A DNA stretch of 64,000 bases, taken from contig NZ_CP141266.1 in the NCBI RefSeq assembly GCF_030540775.2, forward strand, positions 3,521,001 through 3,585,000, written 5' to 3'. Every line of letters begins with the position of its first letter. Position 1 is the first letter of the stretch. Below the pieces are notes generated by a model. It made no database searches and had not been told where the DNA came from. It worked only from the letters and a program-made list of their open reading frames with translations. The DNA is from Flavivirga abyssicola (GTDB lineage: Bacteria > Bacteroidota > Bacteroidia > Flavobacteriales > Flavobacteriaceae). The translations under genes and the position numbers were made by a program. Below are positions 24,715 through 52,029 of the stretch, in pieces.

Positions 24715-24841
24715 GTATAATAAGATTTTATTACGCTAAAATAAGTAAAAAGGATATATTGCTGTCTTTTAACACTCAAAATATACTGGAAGTATTGTTG
24801 TATTGAAGGCGTTTTTAGGTTATTCAATAGATTTTAGCATA

Positions 24842-25001
24842 GAACCTATTTAGACTTTTTGGATTTAAGCGAAAATTAGAAATTTTTGCCTCTGTTGAAG
24901 ACTTTTTTGAGTTACATAGCAGAGCTACGGAAGGAAAAAAAGACAAAAACAGAGTTGAAAACGGCAATTTTTTAGCAAATTGAAAAAGTCTAAAGGAGTT
25001 C
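24842..25001 (+). repeat. 160-bp element with imperfect terminal inverted repeats (copy 1 of MITE-like family)
   Basis: The ends 24842-24860 and 24983-25001 are inverted repeats matching at 16 of 19 positions. ATA immediately precedes and follows the element, as expected for a 3-bp target duplication. The interior aligns with the reverse complement of 51820-51980 at roughly 65% identity over the first ~85 bp, almost without gaps, including a TAGC-AGA-GCTA hairpin. It contains no meaningful gene; a 70-codon ORF here is a by-product. The rest of the 339-bp gap (24715-25053) shows nothing else. Confidence 0.75.
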
Positions 25002-25053
25002 ATATAGAAAAATGACATATAAAATAAGTCAATCAAATAAATTTATGACTGTT

Positions 25054-34944: not shown

Positions 34945-35133
34945 GCCTACATTGGTTATTTTTTTTGATAAACTCAACGTTAATTCTTTAAAAAGGGTGA
35001 GTTTAAGTTGTAAAAGCATGCTGCTAGTACTGGATTTATTTCAGTAGCTCGAGCAGACCCTTGATCAACTTGTTAGCCCTAAACTTGTTTTTAAGGAGTT
35101 TATACAAAACTTTATACTGGTGTAGGCTTTTTT
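34945..35133 (+). ncRNA. ssrS: 6S RNA (6S-Flavo type)
   Basis: The 242-bp gap between zapA and rny folds into a long rod. A closing stem of 12 bp, with G-U pairs, is formed by 34945-34956 and 35116-35127 and is followed by a T-run. Inside it, GATAAACTC near 34967-34975 pairs over 8 bp with GAGTTTAT near 35095-35103. Further inward AAGTTG pairs with CAACTT and there is an apical hairpin near 35020-35055. Size (~185 nt), rod shape with bubbles, and position after zapA fit 6S RNA, which binds RNA polymerase holoenzyme. Ends are estimates. Confidence 0.8.
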
Positions 35134-51719: not shown

Positions 51720-51819
51720 AAAAACAATTTGTTATAGTATAGAGAGGTGTTATTTTCTTTTGTTACAGTTTTGCAAAAAAAAATCCTAAATTCTGTATAG
51801 AATATAGGATTTTAATATG

Positions 51820-51980
51820 GAACTCATCTTGACTTTTTCTATTTCCTAAAAAAATGGCTAAAATTTGCCCATATTTTGTTACTTTTTTTATGCTTAGCAC
51901 TGCTATGCCTTGCAAAAAATGCCTCATCTGAACAAATTTCATCTCATTTTCGGTTAAAAACAAAAAGTCAAGATGAGTTC
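51820..51980 (-). repeat. 161-bp element with perfect 19-bp terminal inverted repeats (copy 2 of MITE-like family)
   Basis: GAACTCATCTTGACTTTTT at 51820-51838 is the exact reverse complement of 51962-51980. ATG directly precedes (51817-51819) and follows (51981-51983) the element. The reverse complement aligns with 24842-25001, lengths 161 and 160 bp, with a shared central TAGC-AGN-GCTA hairpin. A 66-codon ORF across it is a by-product. The remainder of the 310-bp gap (51720-52029) presumably holds the sigma-operon promoter. Confidence 0.8.
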
Positions 51981-52029
51981 ATGGTTAAAAAGGAAATTTT
52001 TTTAAAATTTCATTAGTATATAAATAAAT

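Follow-up and report, generated by a model that had tools for sequence, protein, structure and literature searches.

Short palindromic intergenic repeats that occur in many copies and have a fairly fixed length, such as ERIC and Correia-type elements, are known from other phyla; their end sequences and duplications differ from those of the elements described below, and, unlike for them, a candidate IS partner was identified for the latter. The closest described case found appears to be that of the miniature inverted-repeat transposable elements (MITEs) of Porphyromonas gingivalis, where BrickBuilt, MITEPgRS, MITE239 and MITE700 carry the ends of IS5-family ISPg elements, and where the matches were homologous in the terminal repeats alone (PMC4596501). 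Like the Flavobacteriaceae repeats analysed here, these elements occur in Bacteroidota, are non-coding and have ends matching those of IS5-family ISs, but their ends are different (GAGACC..., ACGT...) and the target duplications of BrickBuilt are variable, whereas the Flavobacteriaceae element is flanked by 3-bp duplications, has a nearly fixed length of 160 bp and a family-wide range. The other relevant system is the proposed partner itself, an IS5-family IS of about 900–930 bp with a DUF4096/DDE transposase (NF033580), 19-bp ends and a 3-bp duplication; unlike this IS, the MITE encodes no transposase and has an interior unrelated to the IS interiors.

The analysed stretch of 64,000 bp (the window) corresponds to positions 3521001–3585000 of the 4.68-Mb single-contig genome of Flavivirga abyssicola. 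Two stretches of the window represent, with a probability of about 0.9, a non-autonomous DNA transposon, or MITE, that is mobilised in trans by an IS5-family transposase. They are short, non-coding and transposase-less, and they belong to a family with dispersed copies and insertion polymorphism. The initial annotation had already proposed a MITE with a 3-bp target duplication, and this proposal is supported by the many copies and their target duplications, by sites that are polymorphic or empty in relatives, and by the existence of a full-length IS whose ends match.

The Two Copies in the Window

Copy 1 (positions 24842–25001, minus strand, 160 bp) belongs to subfamily B (GAACTCATTTAGACTTTTT) and has the end core TTTAGAC. 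Its left terminal inverted repeat, GAACCTATTTAGACTTTTT (24842–24860, plus strand), has two mismatches to the end pattern, and the right one, GAACTCCTTTAGACTTTTT on the minus strand (24983–25001), pairs with the left end at 16 of 19 positions; ATA duplications are located at 24839–24841 and 25002–25004. Copy 2 (51820–51980, plus strand, 161 bp) is a member of subfamily A (GAACTCATCTTGACTTTTT) with the end core CTTGAC; its left repeat (51820–51838, plus strand) and right repeat (51962–51980, minus strand) are perfect 19-bp counterparts, flanked by ATG at 51817–51819 and 51981–51983. Direct reading of the sequence bore out the lengths, end pairing and flanks originally reported for both copies, and the interiors align when one copy is reverse-complemented, as had been noticed (69% identity, the other orientation being worse). 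The conclusion of the initial annotation that an interior identity of ~65% makes the copies old was wrong; the two copies represent different subfamilies, and, therefore, the 65–69% identity between them is no measure of age.

Copies and Host Range

A search of the same genome with the 161-bp copy 2 query, a check that the initial annotation had recommended for this genome and for other Flavobacteriaceae, revealed 28 near-full-length A copies with 87–98% identity, as well as partial ones. Most A copies are 94–98% identical to copy 2, which indicates that subfamily A is young. About ten further B copies and solo ends are also present. The search for the 19-base ends, allowing up to three mismatches, found 91 ends (48 + 43), against 7 (3 + 4) for the reversed control, so that the repeat far exceeds what chance would produce; the two 19-bp ends of a copy differ by 0–2 mismatches in most copies of this genome. 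All 38 elements tested in this genome are intergenic, with neighbouring genes in tandem (24 elements), divergent (10) or convergent (4) arrangement.

All 11 same-genus genomes that were searched contain the MITE. Among 397 sampled Flavobacteriaceae genomes, which represent 237 genera, exact ends were present in 32 genomes of 26 genera, and the reversed end pattern, used as a control, in none. This patchy distribution fits horizontal transfer or repeated loss.

Target Duplications and Empty Sites

A 3-bp target duplication, mostly AAT, ATA or ACT, flanks 107 of 141 distinct Flavobacteriaceae elements (shuffled mean 17, maximum 25), and the length is 159–161 bp in 107 of the 141 extracted elements. 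The consensus of the empty target is palindromic and AT-rich, about TTTTTTAT-ANT-ATAAAAAA, with the central 3 bp duplicated; held-out target sites scored at a median of the 99th percentile of the window and the 98th percentile of nearby DNA. Shorter elements of 47–113 bp that keep both ends intact were also encountered (L270, L232, L123, L128, L100, L102); they are internal deletions, and duplications accompany several of them.

Empty sites were sought in relatives, as the initial annotation had advised, and four of them (G003, G005, G010, G011) have no element at the copy 2 site, where ATG occurs only once; the site is probably empty in G001 too, with ACG. The site of copy 1 in the sister species G008 reads ATA-GAACTC-ATT, and this 6-bp footprint, GAACTC, may have arisen by a deletion that extended from TCATTTAGA, within the left end, to TCATATAGA, which lies at the right junction. 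At contig position 679489, the window's genome (G000) contains a solo end, and G008 contains the full element. A comparison of 20 G008 sites with the window's genome indicated one intact element in common and one solo end in the latter.

The copy 2 site carries elements of different types whose positions agree to the nucleotide: an A element in G000 and G008, a B element in G006, an element of the TTTAAAC type in G004 and GAAGTGATTTAAAC-end elements in G002 and, inverted, in G009. Repeated insertion or conversion is needed to place them there. The target score of this site is only in the top 2–6% of window positions. Together with L356, L357, L359 and L362, the site (51817–51983) presents four end types in six related species. 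A terminator-like inverted repeat, AAAATCCTA...TAGGATTTT (51780–51813), adjoins the insertion site in the host sequence outside the element. Targeting of terminators was rejected, as hairpins beside insertion sites in general show no excess.

Candidate IS5-Family Partner

The initial annotation had proposed looking for a full-length IS that shares the 19-bp ends, and such IS5-family elements were found in other genera. When end pairs of unequal length were sought there, G158 yielded an element of 913 bp, and G105 a decayed element flanked by ATT/ATT. Starting from the protein of the G158 element, ISs of about 890–930 bp were identified in many genera, with hosts including Aquimarina longa, Sinomicrobium oceani, Allomuricauda and Pricia; G158 itself contains three near-identical intact copies (L291, L295, L296). 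The ends of these ISs are GAAGTGATTTAAACTTTTT and GAACTCATTTAAACTTTTT or subtypes of them, many with 3-bp duplications; inverted ends together with such duplications were found at L291, L295, L304, L306, L307, L310 and L315. One IS end is usually GAAGTGAT, whereas both MITE ends are GAACTCAT, a difference that counts against the proposed partnership. The transposase matches PF13340 (DUF4096, 5e-14) and PF01609 (DDE_Tnp_1, 7e-8), and it scores 119.8 bits against the NCBIfam model NF033580 (IS5_3), the cut-off of which is 110.

Each of the end cores TTTAAAC, TTTAGAC and CTTGAC was seen both in ISs and in MITEs. The TTTAGAC subtype of the IS includes L306, L308, L310, L311, L314 and L336, as well as a same-genus remnant, L298; the CTTGAC subtype includes L274 and L279. 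In G158, one IS subtype occurs together with its MITE subfamily. The selection for the ends suggested earlier fits recognition by a transposase, because the end subtypes match the IS subtypes, and, judging from the sequences, an IS5-family IS of about 900–930 bp is the likely source of transposase for the MITE. In the CTTGAC-type IS of G158 (L234, positions 970–1882, the same IS as L274), the transposase is encoded in two overlapping frames, which may reflect either decay or a programmed frameshift.

The window's own lineage presents a different picture. The initial annotation had reported no transposase with these ends in the window, and none was found in the window or in the genome, which contained no relative of the transposase at E ≤ 1e-8. 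An intact cognate IS was found neither in this genome nor in the 11 same-genus genomes searched, and, within the genus, only G010 carries a degraded copy; therefore, we can only infer what mobilised the recent A copies. The copies in the window's genome look like orphans at present, and, therefore, an IS that has since been lost, or one acting from elsewhere, is assumed. Same-genus loci with PF01609 were rejected as partners, since the loci fetched lack the MITE ends, except G009:C2, where an IS is inserted in a MITE. The PF07592 (ISAzo13) profile gave no match, nor did it in control genomes, so that an absence does not follow. Phages and plasmids gave no real match; viral contigs L206 and L207 contain a lone end-like 19-mer amid unrelated sequence.

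The proposed mechanism, parts of which we infer, is as follows. The IS5-family transposase, encoded by the IS with identical 19-bp ends, would recognise the ends of the MITE in trans and would excise the element or copy it; the MITE would then be joined to the AT-rich palindromic target, with duplication of the central 3 bp. Different subtypes of the transposase would recognise MITE subfamilies with the end cores CTTGAC, TTTAGAC and TTTAAAC. Such a transposase presumably reached the window's lineage, moved the MITE and was later lost there.

Interior Hairpin

A comparison of the MITE interiors with 23 IS interiors gave matches no better than those of shuffled sequence, so derivation of the interior from the IS was rejected and a simple origin by internal deletion is not shown. 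The MITE interiors are palindromic (z 5.1–5.8), and an alignment of 40 elements with <90% identity indicated that they fall into classes A, B and C. The fold derived from class C only, when applied to class B, leaves 80% of interior cells paired (27–55% in slid controls), with 8 of 34 pairs doubly changed; when applied to class A, it pairs 70% of cells (slid controls 27–57%), with six doubly changed pairs. The folds of class A transfer less well to the other classes (46–60%), so the exact pairing in class A is less certain. For all 40 rows, 81.9% of cells are paired, a count that includes the 19-bp ends and uses a structure derived from 6 of the 40 rows; 26 pairs are doubly changed, none of 500 shuffles reached as high a value, and the slid controls gave 33–53%. 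In copy 2, the central hairpin region, CTTAGC-ACT-GCTATG, occupies approximately 51885–51915 on the plus strand (helix 6, 91% of cells paired). Thus, the interior is a full-length imperfect hairpin preserved via compensatory changes across the three classes. It is most likely a property of DNA rather than of a structured RNA; it could be accounted for either by selection for a hairpin, extruded or single-stranded, that aids transposition or by template-switch repair from one arm to the other.

Alternative Explanations

A structured RNA function had also been considered in the initial annotation, and the MITE may be, or may also be, an RNA regulatory element spread via transposition and selected for the fold of its transcript. 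The full-length hairpin with compensatory changes and the intergenic location of all the elements tested in the window's genome are what such a role would lead one to expect, but G-T cells in the interior stems number 100 and A-C cells 99; wobble pairs are preferred on neither strand and, therefore, neither strand behaves like a selected RNA. RNAalifold predicted only the end helix for the whole 40-row alignment, with no consensus interior fold, and the Rfam gathering search of the window revealed no family at the MITE copies; moreover, no single arrangement of neighbouring genes is needed, and the insertion sites differ between sister species. This role is consequently unsupported and very unlikely. 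Even less credible is the suggestion that an unrelated transposase moves the repeats and that the likeness to IS5-type ends is coincidental or convergent: the missing intact cognate IS in the window's genome would agree with it, but the identical 19-bp ends, the 3-bp duplications, the three matching subtypes and the co-occurrence of one subtype with its MITE subfamily in G158 speak against it, and the DDE_Tnp_1 loci fetched from the genus lack such ends, except for an IS inside a MITE.

The third alternative concerns the cause of the conserved hairpin alone and is compatible with the MITE reading. Template switching during replication might copy one arm of the quasi-palindrome onto the other, so that paired changes in the arms would be neutral and the hairpin and the ends would evolve together in the absence of selection. 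Template switching reportedly generates and preserves hairpins (PMC8794818, PMC7202029), and the doubly changed pairs do cluster in blocks, e.g., columns 49–51/135–137, where AAA is replaced by TTT; the lack of a strand bias also agrees with it. Switching alone, however, leaves unexplained the conserved unpaired stretches and the fixed length of 159–161 bp in most elements, and we regard it as an explanation with a little less than an even chance of being correct.

On the interior tree, built with the ends excluded, the end types need at least seven changes, a number that is uncertain as many forks are weak; the well-supported branches force at least three changes each for CTTGAC and TTTAGAC. 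The same interior classes combine with the end cores CTTGAC, TTTAGAC and TTTAAAC, which are those of three IS5 subtypes, and in G158 an A-type interior has TTTAAAC at both ends, as in the intact IS of the same genome. One hairpin lineage has thus carried different end types. Tentatively, as a reading less likely than not, it can be proposed that the conserved 160-bp hairpin core swaps the recognition sequence at both ends together, thereby changing its transposase, and that the hairpin is functional in transposition; if so, it would act there, e.g., as an extruded or single-stranded substrate.

The MITE family provides a family-wide natural series for a problem that is difficult to approach, namely how transposons that encode no enzyme stay recognised. 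With the element, its probable IS partner, three end subtypes matched between the two, a target rule and empty sites available, recognition and the host's loss of the enzyme become testable; the conserved hairpin is a clean test case for separating selection from template-switch repair.

Insertions Within the Element and Neighbouring Features

The only Rfam entry in the window is a 6S-Flavo RNA (RF01685, 101.9 bits) at 34972–35101. Two longer versions of the element, of 752 bp in G004 and 256 bp in G006, were rejected as possible parents, being insertions into the MITE. In G009, a MITE copy is interrupted by an IS (L174, about 960–2435) that has its own ends, CTACCGTGTGTACAC, and a ~9-bp duplication; a reading of the IS protein suggests that it is IS4/IS50-like. 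Another MITE-like repeat, CAATGTCATTAAGTTAAG..., which contains TCTGAGCGCAGTCGAAGAC, was found at L118 (980–1235) and L120 (1082–1385); in two species, it sits at the central hairpin loop of the MITE, with ~9-bp duplications.
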